From Bacteroidetes bacterium GWE2_42_24 (GTDB lineage: Bacteria; Bacteroidota; Bacteroidia; Bacteroidales; TTA-H9), in the NCBI GenBank assembly GCA_001768515.1, contig MEOA01000004.1:40914-104913 (forward strand): 64,000 nt of DNA. The letters run 5' to 3'. Under the pieces are notes generated by a model. The model was not told where the DNA came from, did not search any database, and saw nothing but the letters and a program-made list of their open reading frames with translations. Shown in pieces: positions 2,241 to 10,736 of the stretch (position 1 is the stretch's first letter; each line of letters opens with the position of its first letter). A program made the translations under genes and the position numbers.

Positions 2241-2280
2241 GGGGGGGGGTTACCTTTTGTAAAAAACTGACATTAATATA
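2241..2280 (+). promoter_or_regulatory. Two-box promoter-like element (copy A) upstream of the T9SS protein gene
   Basis: Nine Gs followed by TTACC (2250-2254), then a 13-base spacer, then TGACATTAATATA (2268-2280). The same two boxes with the same 13-base spacing lie immediately upstream of the ECF sigma gene (8969-9007, minus strand), with three spacer mismatches. The layout resembles an ECF promoter with a GTTACC-type -35 and a -10 inside TGACATTA. The start codon of the downstream gene is 111 bases further on. It is inferred to be a target of the neighbouring sigma factor. Confidence 0.6.
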
Positions 2281-2391
2281 TACTTGCTAACAAAAATCGG
2301 GCAGAGGTAACCATAACCTATCTTTTTCGTTAGTAGAGGTAATTATGTTAAAATTTGTCGAGATCGATACTAAACTTTAAACTTGTTCACT

Positions 2392-3576
2392 ATGAGATTT
2401 CTAAGTTACTCATTAATCACATTACTTTCAGCAGTACTTCTTTCTGCAACAGGGTTTTCCCAAAATACCATTGAGGGCTATCTGTTGTATCATAACGATC
2501 CGAATAAACCAATTCCTGGCTCAGAGGTTACTTTAACTTCATTAAATGGTGGATCGAATTATATAGCAAACACAGATAATATCGGGAAGTACGTCTTCAC
2601 CAATGTTCCGGACGGAACTTATCAGCTTACAGCTTCAACAACCATTTCAGCAGGTGGCGTAACATTGGGCGATTCGTATCTTATTCTTTTACACTTATTA
2701 GGATTTAATACATTATCACCAATTCAACAAATAGCTGCAGATGTAACAGGAAATGGACAGATTGGATGGGATGACTACACAACCATTATCTCAGGCTGGT
2801 TCCTCAATGGAAATCCATTCCCTGTTGGCGAATGGGCCTTTGATACCGAAATTATTACAACGGGCCTTAAGGATAACACAAACCTTGGCGGCACTTCAGC
2901 AGGAGATGTTAACGGAGGCTATATCCCCAACTTGACTAAAGGAAATGAGCTGTATGTTGCAGTTGAAAATGATATCGACAAAACAAGTACATCGATTCAA
3001 AGTCTATCCGTTATAGGAAATCTTACGACAACAGGCTTCGGCGTTGTTTTTGACCTATCACCCAAGACCCAAATCACAAATATCACTTCTGCATTGGATG
3101 GTTTTGATTATATAGTAGCCCACGATCAGTTAAGGGTTACATGGATTAATAAAACAGGAAAATTAGTCACATTGAATGAATCCGAACCTTTATTCACTAT
3201 TCAGGGCAAAAATCTAGAATTGGCTCCTTCCATCGAGAGTCATTTCATCGATTCAGAAGGTAACATTATTCCTAACATAACATTAAAAGCATCCTCACCA
3301 GTTACAACAGATAAAGACCTTTCGATAAGAAGGCTCTATCAGTCAGGATCAGAAATTATTATCGAGTGTTACACTTATAATGAGCAAAATATCAATGTAA
3401 TCATAAGTGACATGAGTGGAAGAACAATTTCATCTGTCAGCACTAAAACAATCGCTGGACTTACTCAGATCAAGATGTCGACGCAAACGATTCCATCTGG
3501 TATCTATACTTGTAATATCGCTTCAGACGTAGCGACGAAAAATACAGTATCAAAAAAATTCTTTATAAATAATTAA
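2392..3576 (+). CDS. Secreted protein with carboxypeptidase-regulatory-like, dockerin-like and T9SS sorting domains
   Basis: The ATG at 2392 is chosen because it starts a clean signal peptide (MRFLSYSLITLLSAVLLSAT, then GFSQ). A TTG nine bases upstream is less likely. After it come a CnaB/carboxypeptidase-regulatory-like beta domain (about 25-85, IEGYLLYHND through VPDGTYQL), a dockerin-like segment with one good calcium loop (DVTGNGQIGWDD, from D117), a cohesin-like or unassigned beta region, and a C-terminal domain (VIISDMSGRTISSV ... IPSGIYTCNI ... KKFFIN) that fits T9SS type A sorting. Expected to be exported and surface-attached through PorU. It carries the two-box element upstream and a terminator downstream, so it is probably a single-gene unit. 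Ligand unknown. Confidence 0.8.
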   Translation: MRFLSYSLITLLSAVLLSATGFSQNTIEGYLLYHNDPNKPIPGSEVTLTSLNGGSNYIANTDNIGKYVFTNVPDGTYQLTASTTISAGGVTLGDSYLILLHLLGFNTLSPIQQIAADVTGNGQIGWDDYTTIISGWFLNGNPFPVGEWAFDTEIITTGLKDNTNLGGTSAGDVNGGYIPNLTKGNELYVAVENDIDKTSTSIQSLSVIGNLTTTGFGVVFDLSPKTQITNITSALDGFDYIVAHDQLRVTWINKTGKLVTLNESEPLFTIQGKNLELAPSIESHFIDSEGNIIPNITLKASSPVTTDKDLSIRRLYQSGSEIIIECYTYNEQNINVIISDMSGRTISSVSTKTIAGLTQIKMSTQTIPSGIYTCNIASDVATKNTVSKKFFINN

Positions 3577-3596
3577 TCGAAATCTAAGCAAGATTA

Positions 3597-3626
3597 GGCG
3601 GTTTCATAAATGAAACCGCCTTTTTT
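3597..3626 (+). terminator. Rho-independent terminator
   Basis: GGCGGTTTCA pairs perfectly with TGAAACCGCC around a 4-base loop, followed by TTTTTT. It ends the T9SS-protein transcript and separates it from the CHAT gene. Confidence 0.92.
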
Positions 3627-3660
3627 AATTACAGTATGTTTTTTTAACAAGTTAAAAATC

Positions 3661-3668
3661 TAATTTTG
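3661..3668 (+). promoter_or_regulatory. Candidate -7 box for the CHAT gene
   Basis: TAATTTTG matches the TAnnTTTG consensus, 61 bases before the CHAT ATG. No good -33 box is seen. If real, the CHAT gene uses the housekeeping sigma rather than the two-box element. Confidence 0.45.
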
Positions 3669-3729
3669 CAATATTATCAGCACTTTTCGGTGCAGATAGC
3701 TATCATATAAAAATCATTACCTCGATTTA

Positions 3730-6700
3730 ATGAGAAGGCTTTTGCATAAAACGCATACGATTAGAATGGTTCTTGTTGTTTTTGGTTTAATGTTAGCCTC
3801 CACCTGCTTTATCTTTGCATCTCAAAAAATAAATTCAGCATTTGATTGGGAGAATCAAACTCAGAAATTTGAAAAATCTGGTGATATTAAGTCAGCAAAA
3901 AAAATCTATGAAGATGCCTGTGAGTACTTTTTAAAAAACAAACTTTATAAAGAGTATGTCAGGTGCATTACGGGATTGGCAACATTTGAGAAGAATAATC
4001 GCGAATATGCGATCTCTCTTCAAATGATCAGAACAGCCGACAGCTTATATTTCAGGTACAAATTAGACGCTCCTCTGCTACTGGGTGAAATCAACCACCT
4101 TCATGGAACCCTGATGATTATTTTTGGAAATAATCTTTCAGCAGTTAAGCTATTGGAAAGTGCGATTCAGGAGAAAAGAAAATCGCTCAGTGAATTGGAC
4201 ACCATTTTGTCTGTTACATACAATAACCTGGGTATGGCCAACTCAAATCTCGAACAGTTTTCTAATGCTATTAAATACATAAATCTGGCGATAAATTCGC
4301 TTGAACATCAACAAAATAACAAACTTAATTTACTGGCAAAATTTCACGAGAATCTGGGAATCACATTTGCAAGGATGGGGGATTTTTCAAAAGCAAGGGA
4401 TTATATGTTCCGATCGTTATCTGAGAAATTGAAACTTTCGACCAGCAAGAATGATTATGCAAATCTGGCCTCATCATATGTAAATTTAGGCCAAATTGAA
4501 ACCACACTGGGAAATCTTGATTCAGCTTTCCATTATTTAAATTATGCTGAAAATTTGTTGACTAAAACCTCAAATCCTGAATCATCGGATCTTGATATCG
4601 TTTACAATCATAAAGGGAACATATATAGCTTGCAGGGTGATTATGAGAAAGCCCTTGTGTATTACAACAAATCCCTCATAATGCTAAGACGTAAATCACC
4701 AGGGCACAGCCGGATAAAGGAAATTGAAATGAACATAGGTCACATTTATTATGTCAAACAGGATTACGCTAAATCGGTTGAATATTTCCTGTCATCACTT
4801 GATCATACCACTATTTCTGCATCGCAGTTAAAAACTTACAGAAATCTGGGCAAAAGCATGGAAGCTCTTGGCAGATTAGATGAGGCCAAGGACTTTCTGA
4901 CAATGGCAATTCGGCTTAGTGAACAGCGCTATGGTAAAGAAAATTTCGAGGTTGCGCTAAGTCATCTCCATTATGGGAATCTGTTAAAATCGATGAATCT
5001 TCTTGCTGAATCGCACAAACACTATAGCACTGCTCTTCAAATTAATAAAAAACTTTTCGGAACAAAAAACCGCGATGTAGCAGACTGTTATCTTAGATTA
5101 GCAGAATTGGAATTGCAGCGCAAAAACTATCATGCCTGTCTGCAGAATTATCAAAATGCACTCATTGCGCTGGTTGAGGACTTTAACGATGCTAACCCCA
5201 GCACCAATCCGAATACCAATATTCAATCGCCAGATTATTACCTGATGAATGTATTCGCCGGCAAGGGCGAGGCTTTTTTCGAATTATACCGAAAAGATAA
5301 ACAGTTAAAAGACCTCTATTTGAGCTTTAATAACTATAAACTTTACGCCTCGGTAGTAAATCAAATCAGAAGCAAGCTAAGTTCAGACGAAAGCAATCTG
5401 GTCATTAGTAGCCGGCTACGTGAGTTGTTAGGCGGAGCTCTCAGAACTACAACAGAATTATATAAAGTAACCGATGATTCTTACTATTTATCTGAAGCAT
5501 TTATGTTCGCAGAAAAAGGTAAATCGGCCATTTTGCTTGCAGAGGTCAATGACCGCGAAGAGATGCTCGGAAACCCAATACCAGCTTCCATGGCCGCCGA
5601 ATCAAAACAACTGAGGAATAATATCGCTGGTTATAATAAGCTTATCCATGAAGAATTAAAGTCAACTGCCCCAAATCTGAATAAAATTGACCTATGGCGA
5701 GAGAAAGTGTTTGCCCTCGAAAAAGATCAGGAGGAATTAGCCAAACGAATCAAAACCATTAACCCGGATTACTTAAAATATCGCTTTGGAGATAAAATCC
5801 CCACACCCAAAGAACTTCAACAATTACTCCATAACGAAACAATTTTGGAATACACCCTCACCAATGAGGCAATATATACCTTTGTTGTCAATCCTGATAC
5901 ATTTGTCCTCAACATCACTCCGGTTGATAGTAAATTTAAAGAACTCGTGGCGAGTTATATTGATAATATCCGACATGGACTTCTTGCAGATGCCCAGTTA
6001 AGCTTCAATTCATTTATAGACCAATCGCATCAGCTATACAATATTCTGATCAAGCCGAACTACGAATACCTGATGTCTGAACGGTTGATGATTGTACCCG
6101 ATGGAATTCTTGGTTATATCCCTTTCGAAACCCTGATTAAGCAGTTGCCAGAATACTCTACGCCTGATTACCAGCACCTCAATTATTTAATTAAGGATCG
6201 ATCTATCCGTTATAGTTACCTGGCCTCATTACCTTTTATTGAATGGCCGGCTCGAAAAAAGCCAGATAAAACTTTTGTAGGCTTCGCTCCTTTATACGTT
6301 CAAACTGAACCCAGGAATAATGATAATTTGGAATTCAGGCCTGTCTTAAATGATATACCAGGGATTAGAGTTGAAGTGCAGAAAATTGCTGAAGGAATTT
6401 CAGGCAGTGATCTCTTCCTTAATGAAAATGCCACTGAAGCTACCTTTAAAAAGATTTCAGGCGAGTACGAAATTCTCCATCTTGCTTTACACACTCTTGT
6501 CGATAATGATAACCCAATGTTCAGCAAGATGATCTTCTCTAATTCTCCAGATAGTACTGAAGATCAATTATTAAACACCTACGAAATCTATAATCTCGAC
6601 CTTTCAGCCCGGCTTGCTGTCCTTAGTAGCTGTAATACCGGTAGTGGCCGTTTAGTCAGTGGGGAAGGGGTTATGAGCCTTGCCAGAGGATTTCTATATG

Positions 6701-7029
6701 CCGGGGTACCTTCGGTTGTCATGACCTTATGGGAAGCAGAAGACGACGTGGCTACAGGGATGATGCCATCATTTTATGAAAATCTCAAACAAGGCCAGGA
6801 AATTGATCAGGCACTTCACAATGCTAAACTTGATTATCTGGCCTCCGCTGACCGACTACGTTCTCATCCATACTTCTGGTCCTCATATGTCATGATTGGC
6901 GCCAACGAACCCATAACAAATCTAAAAGAGAAAGGAATTCCGGTATGGTTAATCACCATTGGGATTTTTACTCTATTATCCGTCATTGGATACTTGACTT
7001 CCAAGAAGATAACACAAAACAAGAAGTAA
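3730..7029 (+). CDS. Membrane-anchored TPR-CHAT caspase-like protease
   Basis: 1099 residues. An N-terminal hydrophobic segment (about 12-30) acts as signal peptide or anchor. Residues about 35-500 are tandem TPR repeats (e.g. TYNNLGMANSNLEQFSNAIK, YANLASSYVNLGQIETTLGN). About 550-690 is helical linker. The CHAT domain fills about 700-1060 with a His-Cys dyad: H921 in ILHLALHT and C968 in LAVLSSCNTG, then GEGVMSLARGFLYAGVPSVV. A transmembrane helix near 1070-1089 is followed by the basic tail KKITQNKK. The bulk is therefore probably periplasmic and tethered to the inner membrane. CHAT proteases cleave protein partners sensed through TPRs; in type III-E CRISPR the TPR-CHAT protease acts on a sigma-factor inhibitor. 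Its neighbours here are an ECF sigma gene and an anti-sigma-like TPR protein, which may be the target. The substrate is unproven. Confidence 0.88.
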   Translation: MRRLLHKTHTIRMVLVVFGLMLASTCFIFASQKINSAFDWENQTQKFEKSGDIKSAKKIYEDACEYFLKNKLYKEYVRCITGLATFEKNNREYAISLQMIRTADSLYFRYKLDAPLLLGEINHLHGTLMIIFGNNLSAVKLLESAIQEKRKSLSELDTILSVTYNNLGMANSNLEQFSNAIKYINLAINSLEHQQNNKLNLLAKFHENLGITFARMGDFSKARDYMFRSLSEKLKLSTSKNDYANLASSYVNLGQIETTLGNLDSAFHYLNYAENLLTKTSNPESSDLDIVYNHKGNIYSLQGDYEKALVYYNKSLIMLRRKSPGHSRIKEIEMNIGHIYYVKQDYAKSVEYFLSSLDHTTISASQLKTYRNLGKSMEALGRLDEAKDFLTMAIRLSEQRYGKENFEVALSHLHYGNLLKSMNLLAESHKHYSTALQINKKLFGTKNRDVADCYLRLAELELQRKNYHACLQNYQNALIALVEDFNDANPSTNPNTNIQSPDYYLMNVFAGKGEAFFELYRKDKQLKDLYLSFNNYKLYASVVNQIRSKLSSDESNLVISSRLRELLGGALRTTTELYKVTDDSYYLSEAFMFAEKGKSAILLAEVNDREEMLGNPIPASMAAESKQLRNNIAGYNKLIHEELKSTAPNLNKIDLWREKVFALEKDQEELAKRIKTINPDYLKYRFGDKIPTPKELQQLLHNETILEYTLTNEAIYTFVVNPDTFVLNITPVDSKFKELVASYIDNIRHGLLADAQLSFNSFIDQSHQLYNILIKPNYEYLMSERLMIVPDGILGYIPFETLIKQLPEYSTPDYQHLNYLIKDRSIRYSYLASLPFIEWPARKKPDKTFVGFAPLYVQTEPRNNDNLEFRPVLNDIPGIRVEVQKIAEGISGSDLFLNENATEATFKKISGEYEILHLALHTLVDNDNPMFSKMIFSNSPDSTEDQLLNTYEIYNLDLSARLAVLSSCNTGSGRLVSGEGVMSLARGFLYAGVPSVVMTLWEAEDDVATGMMPSFYENLKQGQEIDQALHNAKLDYLASADRLRSHPYFWSSYVMIGANEPITNLKEKGIPVWLITIGIFTLLSVIGYLTSKKITQNKK

Positions 7030-7576
7030 CCTCTCTCACTTATTCTAGTTAGGGATATATTGATTAGACTTTATTAAGCGAAGCAAAATGACTATGATTG
7101 ATGCTCCAGTATTATATACTATCAACCGTGAGAAACATAAGGTGGCCCTGTCTTGTATCCTTTCATTATCAATCAGATATGCCTAAAAGCTTTGCTTCAT
7201 TTATACTCAAAAGCTTAATACCTCGGTAAAAATATATCTGACGGACAGAGAATGCATCTTTCAGGAAAATCATTTCCATGAAAATTTCCCCCTACACAAG
7301 ACAAAAATTTATGGAAGGATGGAGGGGCTTTACAACAAGGATTACATAATCTTAAACGCCTTCAAAAAACATCCGTAATTTACGGCAATTCTTAAATAAT
7401 ACCTTTTTCAGAACAATTATTACGAAAAATCATGGGTTTAAAGCATCTTTGAATTAGCAACATAATCAACGTTTATAGAGATCCGTTTTGCAGCCAATTT
7501 ACCCCAAAATTGTAATACAACACCTACCTTACTGATGCCATATATGCTTCATAATACTTCCCAAAGGACAAAATAC
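7030..7576. other. Intergenic region between convergent CHAT and anti-sigma genes
   Basis: About 550 bases with stops in all frames and no recognised gene, repeat or promoter. It is AT-rich like the region left of the locus. Confidence 0.4.
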
Positions 7577-7615
7577 TAGCCCCCCTCCAGAACATAATCA
7601 TCTGAAGGGGGGCTA
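7577..7615 (-). terminator. Hairpin terminator of the sigma/anti-sigma operon
   Basis: A 15-base stem with one mismatch (C6-rich arm against G6-rich arm) around a 9-base loop, 31 bases past the anti-sigma-like stop. On the minus strand it is followed by GTATTTTG, a weak T tract, so terminator function is likely but not certain. Confidence 0.6.
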
Positions 7616-7646
7616 TGTAATTGCAGGAAACAAAAACGTTTTATGG

Positions 7647-8387
7647 TTAATCTAATTGGTTCAGAAGGTCAACAGCTTTATCATTAAAGTAACTCTGAGA
7701 ACCAGAGATAGTTTTAAGTGTACTCTTGGCCATTGGGAGATTGTCAGTTTTAATATAGCATAGAGCCAGATACCAGCCAGCCTGATCAGTGAAGAGATTA
7801 GATTGGTCCGCTGTAACTGCCTTTAAGTGTTCGATAGCTTTAGGGAAGTCATTAAGTTCCATCATTGAAATGGCAAGATAGAACCTTGCTGCCATATTAT
7901 CAGTCTGAGAAGCTAACAGGCGGGCTGAGTTTACATAATCACGCTTGCCGTAATAGTGCATGGCTGTAACGAAATCCGAGGTACCGGCTGTTTCGGCAGA
8001 ACGTTGCATTAAAAACGGTTCAGCTGGTTCATAATATTTCCCGTAGAGCTCCTTCCCCTGAGGGTGACCTCTAAAAAAAATCAATGAAAGGCCAATCAGA
8101 GTTATTACCAAGGCGGCAGCAACAGGTATTCTGGGCCATTTGGCAAAGGAAGAAAAGTGTTTACCAGTTGCCATACTGCTATCCCTTTCATGAATCTCTG
8201 AGAGTTTCCTGCGCAACTGTAGTGACTGCCAATCGTTCAACGGGGTATCAAGGGTGTCGGCCAGCATGACTTTTTGCTTCAAATCAGAATTCTCGATTAT
8301 CCGCTCATTAAGTTTTTTCATATCATCCTGATTTAGTGCACCTTCTATATAGCCATTGAGCAAATGCTCATCTGTTTGATTAATCAT
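7647..8387 (-). CDS. Anti-sigma-like single-pass membrane protein with C-terminal TPR region
   Basis: The start at 8387 (MINQTDEHLLNGYIEG) gives 246 residues and overlaps the sigma gene stop by 8 bases. An earlier in-frame start at 8411 would overlap more. The N-terminal ~85 residues are acidic and helical (LLNGYIEGALNQDDMKKLNE), like the cytoplasmic part of Bacteroidota anti-sigma factors, but with no zinc H-C-C motif. One transmembrane helix lies at about 87-105 (PVAAALVITLIGLSLIFF). The C-terminal half, about 130-246, is TPR-like (FYLAISMMELNDFPKAIEHL) and should be periplasmic. Co-transcription and overlap with the sigma gene suggest it restrains that factor. The periplasmic TPR half would be reachable by the CHAT protease. 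No direct family match is claimed. Confidence 0.75.
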   Translation of the reverse strand: MINQTDEHLLNGYIEGALNQDDMKKLNERIIENSDLKQKVMLADTLDTPLNDWQSLQLRRKLSEIHERDSSMATGKHFSSFAKWPRIPVAAALVITLIGLSLIFFRGHPQGKELYGKYYEPAEPFLMQRSAETAGTSDFVTAMHYYGKRDYVNSARLLASQTDNMAARFYLAISMMELNDFPKAIEHLKAVTADQSNLFTDQAGWYLALCYIKTDNLPMAKSTLKTISGSQSYFNDKAVDLLNQLD

Positions 8388-8961
8388 AGAATATATCTTT
8401 ATATCCAGCATCAGCTATTACTCGTTTAATCAGTTTCTGTTTACATTCATATTTCTTTTTCTTTACAAAACTTTCAGTTACCCCCATTATTTCTGCAATT
8501 TCTCTTACCGAAACATCTTCAATGTATAATCTCAGCAGTGTTTGGCAGCCTGCGCTCAAATGGATAAAATGACGCTGAATAAAATTCGACTTTTCGTTTT
8601 CATGATAAGAATCCAGAAACCCGGTATCCAGATCTGCAATATCTTCATATTCATGCATTTCACTTCCAATAATTGCATTCCGACGTTTATCTGCCAACCT
8701 TTGATGTACCCACAATACCTTTACGACCGATTGGAGATAAGTCCCAAATAAACAGTCTAATTCAAGCGGACTCTTTCTAACCCGCTGTAAAATAACCACT
8801 ACAGCTTCCTGAAATATATCGAATGCATCCTCTTTGCCACCACCACGGGATTTTACAAACTTGAGAGCAACAGGAAAAAAAGAACTATAAATAAAATCAA
8901 GCACACGTGTGTCGTTACTTACGATTCCTTCCAAAATCTGCTTTGTAGAAAACTTCGTCAC
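8380..8961 (-). CDS. ECF-type RNA polymerase sigma factor
   Basis: 193 residues with a sigma region 2 (FIYSSFFPVALKFVKSRGGG, EDAFDIFQEAVVVILQRVRK) and a sigma region 4 helix-turn-helix (CQTLLRLYIEDVSVREIAEI then MGVTESFVKKKKYECKQKL). It should direct RNA polymerase to a small promoter set. The start is GTG at 8961, with a TAG stop three codons upstream, so it cannot extend. It sits only 7 bases after the -10-like box of the two-box element, so the message would be leaderless or nearly so. The same element precedes the T9SS-protein gene, suggesting autoregulation. It forms an operon with the anti-sigma-like gene. Confidence 0.9.
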   Translation of the reverse strand: MTKFSTKQILEGIVSNDTRVLDFIYSSFFPVALKFVKSRGGGKEDAFDIFQEAVVVILQRVRKSPLELDCLFGTYLQSVVKVLWVHQRLADKRRNAIIGSEMHEYEDIADLDTGFLDSYHENEKSNFIQRHFIHLSAGCQTLLRLYIEDVSVREIAEIMGVTESFVKKKKYECKQKLIKRVIADAGYKDIFYD

Positions 8962-8968
8962 ATCACAC

Positions 8969-9007
8969 TATATTAATGTCATTTTTTACCAAAAGGTAAC
9001 CCCCCCC
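8969..9007 (-). promoter_or_regulatory. Two-box promoter-like element (copy B) upstream of the ECF sigma gene
   Basis: Read on the minus strand: eight Gs (9007-9000), TTACC (8999-8995), 13 bases, TGACATTAATATA (8981-8969). The boxes and spacing are identical to 2241-2280. The sigma-factor GTG follows at 8961. The preserved spacing with a slightly diverged spacer is what a -35/-10 pair would show. Confidence 0.6.
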
Positions 9008-9509: not shown

Positions 9510-10736
9510 ATGATAATAAAGTCGCTTTCGATAATCGTTCTTTGGATTCTGGGTTTAACATCATGTTCGTCGCAGAATCAAAATCATCAGGTAAATGTTT
9601 TACCCAATGTATCAAAGACATCGGTCACTGCCCAGATCGTAACAGGGGCAGAACATACGGCAGATTACACTGGTCTTCTTGCAAACAAGAGGGTTGGGTT
9701 GGTTGTTAACCAAACATCAGTAATCGGCAAACAGCATCTGATCGATACACTTCTTAAGCTTGGCATTCGTATAGAAGCTATTTTCGCCCCCGAGCATGGT
9801 TTTAGAGGAAATAACCCGGATGGAGACATAATTAGAGATAACAGGGATTTAAAAACAGGTATAGAAGTCTGGTCACTATATGGGAAAACGAAGAAGCCAA
9901 CACCAGAGCAACTTGACAGAGTTGACATCATCGTATATGACATTCAGGATGTTGGCGTAAGGTTTTACACCTTTATATCAACATTACATTATGTAATGGA
10001 AGCCTGTGCTGAAGCAGGGAAACCCCTGATTGTTTTTGATCGGCCAAATCCAAATAGTGGTTATATCGACGGCCCGGTTCTCGACACTTCCTTCCGTTCT
10101 TTTGTTGGAATGCATCCTATACCGGTTGTCTATGGGCTTACACCAGGTGAACTGGCTGAAATGATCAATGGGGAAGGCTGGCTGAGAAATTCAAGAAAAT
10201 GCAACCTGAAAATAATTCCGCTTTCAGGATACAGTCATGGGGACAAGATATCCTTGCTAATACCACCGTCTCCAAATCTCCCTAATGATTTAGCCATCAA
10301 TCTTTATCCTTCACTTTGCTGGTTTGAAGCAACACCGGTAAGCATAGGCCGTGGCACGCCATGGCCGTTTCAGGTTATTGGGTTTCCGGATGAAACATGC
10401 GGACAGTTCTGCTTTGAGCCACAGCCGATTAAAAATGCCTCAATTAGCCCTCCTCAGAAAGGAAAAAAATGTTTTGGAGATGACTTGCGGAATACGTTCT
10501 ATAGAAACCAGATCGATTTAGACATTTTCATACAATATTACCATCATTTGAAGAATAAAACCAAGTTCTTCGAGCGTCCTGATTTCTTCGACAAATTGGC
10601 CGGGACTGATCAATTACGATTTGATATTGAAAGCGAAAAGACAGAAGCTGAAATTCGCGACGGATGGCAAAAGCAGCTAACGGAATATAAAACACTAAGG
10701 CAGCGATATCTTCTATATCCGGATCACTCCAAATAA
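9510..10736 (+). CDS. namZ: Exo-beta-N-acetylmuramidase NamZ family (DUF1343, GH171) lipoprotein
   Basis: 408 residues with a lipoprotein signal (MIIKSLSIIVLWILGLTSC). The body is the DUF1343 family: GLLANKRVGLVVNQTS, the APEHGFRG motif (E95-H96), YDIQDVGVRFYTFISTLHY, FDRPNP, and SIGRGTPWPFQVIG. Family members (B. subtilis YbbC/NamZ) release MurNAc from the non-reducing ends of peptidoglycan fragments. Here it should act in the periplasm or on the outer-membrane inner face. It is followed after 14 bases by an SSS transporter, a common Bacteroidota pairing that suggests uptake of released products. NagZ, its usual partner enzyme, lies at 50631 in this window. Confidence 0.9.
   Translation: MIIKSLSIIVLWILGLTSCSSQNQNHQVNVLPNVSKTSVTAQIVTGAEHTADYTGLLANKRVGLVVNQTSVIGKQHLIDTLLKLGIRIEAIFAPEHGFRGNNPDGDIIRDNRDLKTGIEVWSLYGKTKKPTPEQLDRVDIIVYDIQDVGVRFYTFISTLHYVMEACAEAGKPLIVFDRPNPNSGYIDGPVLDTSFRSFVGMHPIPVVYGLTPGELAEMINGEGWLRNSRKCNLKIIPLSGYSHGDKISLLIPPSPNLPNDLAINLYPSLCWFEATPVSIGRGTPWPFQVIGFPDETCGQFCFEPQPIKNASISPPQKGKKCFGDDLRNTFYRNQIDLDIFIQYYHHLKNKTKFFERPDFFDKLAGTDQLRFDIESEKTEAEIRDGWQKQLTEYKTLRQRYLLYPDHSK

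Follow-up and report, generated by a model that had tools for sequence, protein, structure and literature searches.

Does a CHAT protease in Bacteroidota switch on an extracytoplasmic function (ECF) sigma factor by cutting a membrane anti-sigma factor, with no CRISPR (clustered regularly interspaced short palindromic repeats) part involved? The question is raised by positions 2241-9007 of a 64,000-nucleotide stretch of the genome of Bacteroidetes bacterium GWE2_42_24 (contig MEOA01000004.1; the whole stretch is called the window here and is numbered from its first letter). There, the genes for an exported surface protein and for a CHAT protein with tetratricopeptide repeats (TPR-CHAT) run head-on towards a two-gene operon for an ECF-type sigma factor and a single-pass TPR protein. 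Caspase-like CHAT proteases are widespread in bacteria; apart from those of CRISPR systems and those studied in cell death, few have, to our knowledge, an established substrate. An initial annotation of the locus had proposed that the protease could release the sigma factor by cleaving its partner in response to an envelope or surface signal, an interpretation that the present analysis partly supported.

We favour, with a probability of roughly 0.55, the reading that the locus encodes a periplasmic, CRISPR-free CHAT/anti-sigma/sigma switch for surface and secreted proteins, in which CHAT would cleave the anti-sigma linker. It builds on the gene content, the conserved neighbourhood, a promoter-like motif shared by both operons, a conserved His-Cys dyad and a conserved linker arginine. 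We infer that CHAT cuts its partner and thereby frees the sigma factor, and likewise what the signal is. CHAT would cut the anti-sigma factor, a predicted single-pass TPR protein, in its linker immediately outside the inner membrane, perhaps at R137, and the ECF sigma factor encoded beside it would be released, the remaining membrane stub being presumably trimmed further by other proteases. Once free, the sigma factor would transcribe both its own operon and the surface protein-CHAT operon, giving positive feedback, as well as a set of genes for exported proteins, many being cargo of the type IX secretion system (T9SS); the T9SS-tailed surface protein may be the signal or ligand. The reading offers a specific, testable candidate substrate, candidate site and target promoter for a whole clade.

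Gene content of the locus

Open reading frame (ORF) calls and profile matches bore out the four-gene content, and the features were placed as follows (pLDDT, predicted local distance difference test).

2247-2276, + strand: predicted ECF promoter of the surface protein-CHAT operon (GGGTTACCTTTT-N13-ATTAA, 0 mismatches; found with a weight matrix built solely from regions 5' of sigma genes)
2383-3576, + strand: exported surface protein, 397 amino acids, with a CarboxypepD_reg-like domain, a dockerin-like segment and a T9SS-like C-terminal tail
3730-7029, + strand: TPR-CHAT protein, 1099 amino acids, with an N-terminal signal/membrane segment and a C-terminal membrane helix
6025-6903, + strand: CHAT domain, residues 766-1058 (H921 codon 6490-6492; C968 codon 6631-6633)
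6934-7023, + strand: C-terminal predicted membrane helix of the CHAT protein, residues 1069-1098, with a basic tail
7647-8411, - strand: predicted single-pass TPR anti-sigma factor, 254 amino acids as called (likely start 8387)
7980-8033, - strand: linker from membrane helix to TPR domain, residues 127-144 (pLDDT below 50 at 137-142)
8001-8003, - strand: codon of the candidate cleavage arginine R137 in that linker (alignment and model)
8073-8123, - strand: membrane helix of the anti-sigma-like protein, residues 97-113 (structure model)
8380-8961, - strand: ECF-type sigma factor, 193 amino acids (profile matches)
8973-9002, - strand: predicted ECF promoter of the sigma-anti-sigma operon (0 mismatches; ends about 11 bases ahead of the sigma start codon)

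The ends of the locus, 2241 and 9007, fall 5-6 bases outside the two copies of the promoter-like motif, which the initial annotation did not name. The window's source assembly comprises 4.3 Mb, is 97% complete and carries a second CHAT gene elsewhere; the closest named relative among the matches listed was a Bacteroidales metagenome genome (L186).

The sigma protein matched TIGR02937 (E 3.9e-18) and Sigma70_r4_2, both above cut-off, with no Pfam region 2 match; it is a sigma-70 family protein with region 4 and of ECF size. These matches, the ORFs and a structure model agree with the earlier description of an ECF sigma gene and a single-pass TPR protein opposite CHAT. The fourth gene had been taken for a dockerin-like/T9SS surface protein, and this held: the T9SS tail was matched in 16 of 17 aligned members (the window's included) and Dockerin_1, at E 0.01, in 7 of 17. 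The window's own surface protein, whose ATG start is probably at 2392, has CarboxypepD_reg above cut-off and the T9SS tail just under it (23 vs 27 bits).

Conservation of the neighbourhood

A near full-length CHAT homologue was found in 7 of 9 genomes of the family (window's included), and in all seven loci the sigma gene, the TPR protein gene and the surface gene adjoin it, the surface gene being cut by a contig end in two. Among 198 genomes of the order, with up to three CHAT candidates scored per genome, 58 of 112 CHAT matches lay within 8 kb of a sigma or TPR gene (about 0.9 expected at random), and 50 of those 58 were near both. This linkage count took in all 112 CHAT, 111 anti-sigma and 124 sigma matches, weak ones left out; some weak sigma matches were retained because they were paired with an anti-sigma gene, and sigma counts by rank are biased and were not used. 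The expectation, set earlier as a refutation test, that CHAT and sigma/anti-sigma genes are often neighbours in relatives was thus confirmed. The linked loci were convergent in 46 cases, divergent in 7 and tandem in 5. CHAT was present in 59 of 62 genomes with the TPR protein vs. 20 of 136 without it, and in two of the three exceptions a weaker or incomplete CHAT lies close to the TPR gene (G037 in L178, G156 in L135).

A second collection consisted of the best 80 loci by CHAT-domain similarity among the matches listed; within 4 kb of CHAT, 41 had both partners, 8 the sigma gene only, 6 the TPR protein only and 25 neither. Linked loci also occurred in genomes named Cytophagales, Saprospiraceae, Flavobacteriaceae and Aquimarina among the matches listed. 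Cultured relatives in which the CHAT, anti-sigma and sigma genes stand together include Prolixibacter denitrificans (L194) and Labilibaculum manganireducens (L188). Of the 41 loci first clustered, 20 have the surface gene, which in every one of them stands directly 5' of CHAT on the same strand, the sigma operon being convergent or divergent.

This last arrangement bears on the main alternative, a serious contender that we nevertheless hold to be unlikely, in which CHAT is a mere output of the sigma factor. The sigma/anti-sigma pair would sense the envelope by another route, and periplasmic CHAT would process surface or T9SS proteins, including the product of the gene before it. Adjacent and codirectional surface and CHAT genes in 20 of 20 loci suit that view. 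It fits less well that the neighbourhood is kept in varied arrangements, with CHAT between the TPR and sigma genes in 12 of the best 80 loci, and that it is also kept in loci without the surface gene.

A promoter-like motif shared by both operons

The weight matrix was trained only on regions upstream of sigma genes and yielded GGGTTACCTTTT, 13 bases and ATTAA; in 25 of the 30 best cases this stood 9-18 bases 5' of the sigma start as called. A score above 12 was reached in front of 31 of the 109 sigma genes used for training and of 17 of 121 CHAT operons. Of 761 other genes, 5 reached it, three of them (L098, L101, L091) being histidine kinase-like genes adjoining CHAT. The two best matches in the window were the two operon starts (2247-2276, +, and 8973-9002, -), and three matches with up to two mismatches were observed vs. 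0.01 expected. We predict promoter function for the motif at both operons. The motif stops about 11 bases short of the sigma start (8961-9002), with a like spacing in many relatives, so that the sigma mRNA may have no leader or hardly any.

Across the 198 genomes, 82 sites with at most one mismatch were found vs. 18 for the reversed motif. Of these, 63 (reversed: 7) were in 20 of the 62 genomes having the TPR protein, and 19 (reversed: 11) in 14 of the 136 genomes without it. Only 21 of the 82 sites lay within 3 kb of sigma, TPR or CHAT matches and 61 lay elsewhere, which points to a regulon. In the window's genome, 5 sites with up to two mismatches were counted vs. 2 for the reversed motif, only the two local ones being convincing.

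Genes behind the sites were scanned in 10 ORFs chosen from 17 found at 21 sites (4 sites were without an ORF), the downstream ORF being the longest within 900 bases of the site and not always the first. A T9SS sorting domain was found in 5 of the 10, one of them below cut-off, and a C25 (gingipain-family) peptidase in G110 was among the T9SS-tailed ORFs. In the window's family the domain was found in 3 of 5 scanned ORFs, one below cut-off; two of those family ORFs begin about 760-800 bases past the site, behind a shorter ORF. T9SS tails numbered 79 to at least 150 per genome in five genomes, and T9SS cargo looks enriched behind the motif in this hand-chosen set. Lipoprotein-like genes are also preceded by the motif across the order. 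A sigma-type motif 5' of the surface protein-CHAT operon, and exported proteins as the other predicted targets, would be expected if CHAT were output only; it speaks against this that 61 of the 82 sites lie elsewhere in the genomes and CHAT does not.

Further copies were noted. A third, weaker one lies at 1755-1784 on the + strand (2 mismatches), with no ORF of at least 90 amino acids before the surface gene at 2383. The motif also stands before CHAT-adjacent histidine kinase-like genes in L091, L098, L101 and L107, and in genome G002 (L296, L299, L300) alike stretches from motif to T9SS cargo genes hold alike ORFs of about 150 amino acids.

The TPR-CHAT protease

The CHAT domain matched PF12770 with E 1.3e-58 over residues 766-1058, TPRs lying N-terminal of it. 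The intact His921-Cys968 dyad of the initial annotation was confirmed; H921 and C968 were invariant across an 18-sequence alignment, and the dyad was intact in every sigma-linked CHAT with a letter at those positions. With a CHAT domain and this dyad the protein at 3730-7029 is of the TPR-CHAT type and a putative protease. Separase and Csx29 were fold matches of the protease model, which has a TPR-CHAT fold like that of Csx29, and the model matched DdvA by Foldseek with E 8.6e-15. A CHAT profile run against sequences of solved structures gave two weak matches only, one of them 8rot (E 1.9); the link came from fold searches.

Hydropathy revealed hydrophobic segments at both termini, as had been described; by prediction, the inner membrane anchors the CHAT protein, whose body lies on the periplasmic side. 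That CHAT and the TPR half of its partner share one compartment, the other refutation test, was borne out as a prediction on which hydropathy and model agree.

A common predicted compartment, and TPRs on both proteins, would also allow CHAT to control the anti-sigma factor without cutting it, pulling or shielding it by TPR-TPR docking while proteolysis serves something else. DdvA, which unites a CHAT domain with an anti-sigma factor in a single chain and is inactivated by a signal, provides a parallel. Docking alone would not demand the dyad found intact in all sigma-linked CHATs with a letter there, and we regard this explanation as very doubtful.

Other Bacteroidota (L243, L261, L262) have between two and five CHAT genes or gene pieces in tandem.

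The anti-sigma-like protein and its linker arginine

Homologue P0003 begins at residue 9 of the called anti-sigma-like ORF, which makes 8387 the likely start and the overlap with the sigma gene 8 bases. In the structure model (mean pLDDT 78.7, predicted template modelling score 0.53), four helices (residues 2-78) are followed by the membrane helix (97-113), then by a short helix and, from residue 145 on, by the TPR domain; pLDDT is below 50 at 57-59, 80-93 and 137-142. The TPR protein is predicted to be a membrane anti-sigma factor. Sub-threshold matches to NF052375 and NF010501 occurred in two homologues. A phmmer search with the protein gave only two matches, both with E above 0.5. Fold searches matched mostly the TPR half, no known anti-sigma domain being among the matches listed, and the N-terminal half was therefore barely probed.

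R137, the first residue of the low-confidence segment 137-142, was invariant in one alignment (28/28) and in the first set (30/30), and the same column was held by Arg in 77 of 89 sequences; alignments A5 and A6 comprise a chosen subset of the proteins found. Overall, the linker had an Arg in 128 of 132 sequences, a Lys in 2 and neither in 2 (103 cases by script, the remainder by eye). At the position that follows, 92 of the 103 script-found cases have Ser (S138 in the window's protein), Gly, Ala or Thr. Alignment and model make R137, in a flexible linker, a candidate cleavage site. Such a conserved residue is a further point against CHAT as mere output.

Starting from this site, one may picture the switch as a two-compartment monitor of type IX secretion. 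The T9SS-tailed, dockerin-bearing surface protein would transit the periplasm and, when its export stalls, dock on the TPR sensor of CHAT; the anti-sigma factor would be cut at R137, and more cargo, sensor and protease would be made. We consider this elaboration rather improbable; if it is true, the Csx29-Csx30-sigma switch would have a CRISPR-free and perhaps ancestral counterpart across Bacteroidota.

The N-terminal part varies among homologues. Anti-sigma-like proteins of 376-504 amino acids in L147, L151 and L164 seem, by eye, to have several repeats of the N-terminal helical module ahead of the membrane helix, and the homologue at L185:6461-7237 opens with a Cys-rich, CxxC zinc-finger-like segment instead of the usual helices, for which no Pfam zinc-finger match was obtained.

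Evidence weighing against the proposed switch

Several results count against cleavage of the anti-sigma factor by CHAT. Proximity is incomplete: of the best 80 CHAT loci, 25 have neither partner within 4 kb, and 9 of these 25 have room on both sides. With up to one mismatch allowed, the motif had no site in 42 of the 62 anti-sigma genomes and did have one in 14 of the remaining 136. The motif also marks CHAT as a sigma target, which fits a pure output role too. Known anti-sigma models were matched below cut-off only (NF052375, E 2e-4, in one homologue). The DdvA fold match was weak in template modelling (TM) score (0.25/0.29) and missing from the 50 VIA rows listed.

The linker arginine has its own difficulties. 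Restriction of this residue to CHAT-adjacent proteins was tested and failed, since it was equally common without CHAT within 4 kb (15 of 17), and it may for that reason be structural; all 17 of those genomes carry CHAT elsewhere, so that the comparison has no CHAT-free control. L156 has CHAT beside a linker without any basic residue, and Craspases cut non-conserved, varied sites. Separase reads the P1 Arg with D2151, whose Csx29 equivalent is K670. By simple counting in the 18-sequence alignment, residues 41-43 past C968 are T, G and M, none acidic, and an Arg pocket of the separase type is therefore not evident in the window's CHAT. The invariant D1005, 37 residues past C968, was rejected as the Arg reader, separase D2151 and Csx29 K670 speaking against it. 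Cleavage in the linker, as proposed here, is independent of a separase-like Arg-reading residue.

Comparison with known systems

In type III-E CRISPR systems, the TPR-CHAT protease Csx29, Csx30 and CASP-sigma make a protease/inhibitor/sigma switch (PMC10028731, PMC9729208). PF03787 (RAMPs) had no match in the window's genome (97% complete), no Cas7-11-specific model having been run, and no repeat array was found in L019 (19 kb around the locus) or in window positions 1-25000, in agreement with the earlier proposal of a switch with no CRISPR part. The module is outside type III-E and, with no RAMP-family match and no repeat array near the locus, can be likened to the Csx29-Csx30-sigma switch without its RNA-guided part. 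It differs from Craspase in that CHAT and inhibitor are predicted membrane proteins and that the inhibitor has a TPR outer half. If our reading is true, the CRISPR Craspase switch may have borrowed an older protease/anti-sigma pairing.

The same resemblance of TPR-CHAT, ECF sigma and inhibitor to Csx29, CASP-sigma and Csx30 (PMC10028731) could suggest an antiviral system like Craspase, with CHAT acting on infection. The missing RAMP-family match and repeat array make this highly improbable, as do the membrane and export signals on CHAT and the surface and secreted proteins among the predicted targets; PADLOC gave nothing beyond a generic TPR match for the four proteins.

Another comparable system is DdvS-DdvA of Myxococcus xanthus (PDB 8rot, 8rw5; PMC4374960), in which an ECF sigma factor is paired with an anti-sigma factor that spans the membrane and has been named a CHAT protein. 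There, CHAT and anti-sigma factor form one chain; in the window they are encoded by two genes, the anti-sigma-like one being a TPR protein in its own right, with a conserved linker Arg. No structure paper on DdvA was found in the literature search. ECF54 sigma genes have CHAT, subtilase and carboxypeptidase-domain neighbours, and proteolytic control was proposed for these factors (PMC8999054); the likeness lies in CHAT beside an ECF sigma gene. Described systems with a caspase-like domain linked to ECF sigma and TPR genes, with transcriptional output proposed, differ in their DUF1822-family TPR protein and as immunity/cell-death modules. Porphyromonas PorXY-SigP and PorA (PMC7712824) likewise link a T9SS-tailed (C-terminal domain, CTD) surface protein to an ECF sigma factor and T9SS genes; that is a two-component system with T9SS machinery as target, in contrast with the cargo targets predicted here.

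A partial search of the literature on CHAT with sigma, anti-sigma or transcription, many subscription papers being outside it, found no description of the module. New here are the shared promoter-like motif, the nearly invariant linker Arg and the protease fold match to separase and Csx29. In the RseA-DegS-RseP control of RpoE, a membrane anti-sigma factor is cut outside the membrane; the predicted logic is the same and the protease family differs. If true, our reading would give Bacteroidota an envelope-signalling route based on a separase-like protease and tied to type IX secretion.

Neighbouring genes

Genes resembling those for MutS2 and a carboxylase, identified by eye, also lie near CHAT and were regarded as housekeeping genes. 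A gene for NamZ (exo-beta-N-acetylmuramidase) lies near the sigma gene at window positions 9510-10736, with homologues in 7 of 7 family loci. In L102, L104, L105, L106 and L107, a gene of about 730 amino acids that resembles a peptidase-containing ABC exporter adjoins CHAT loci without the surface gene, and in four of these five loci a partner gene stands beside it.

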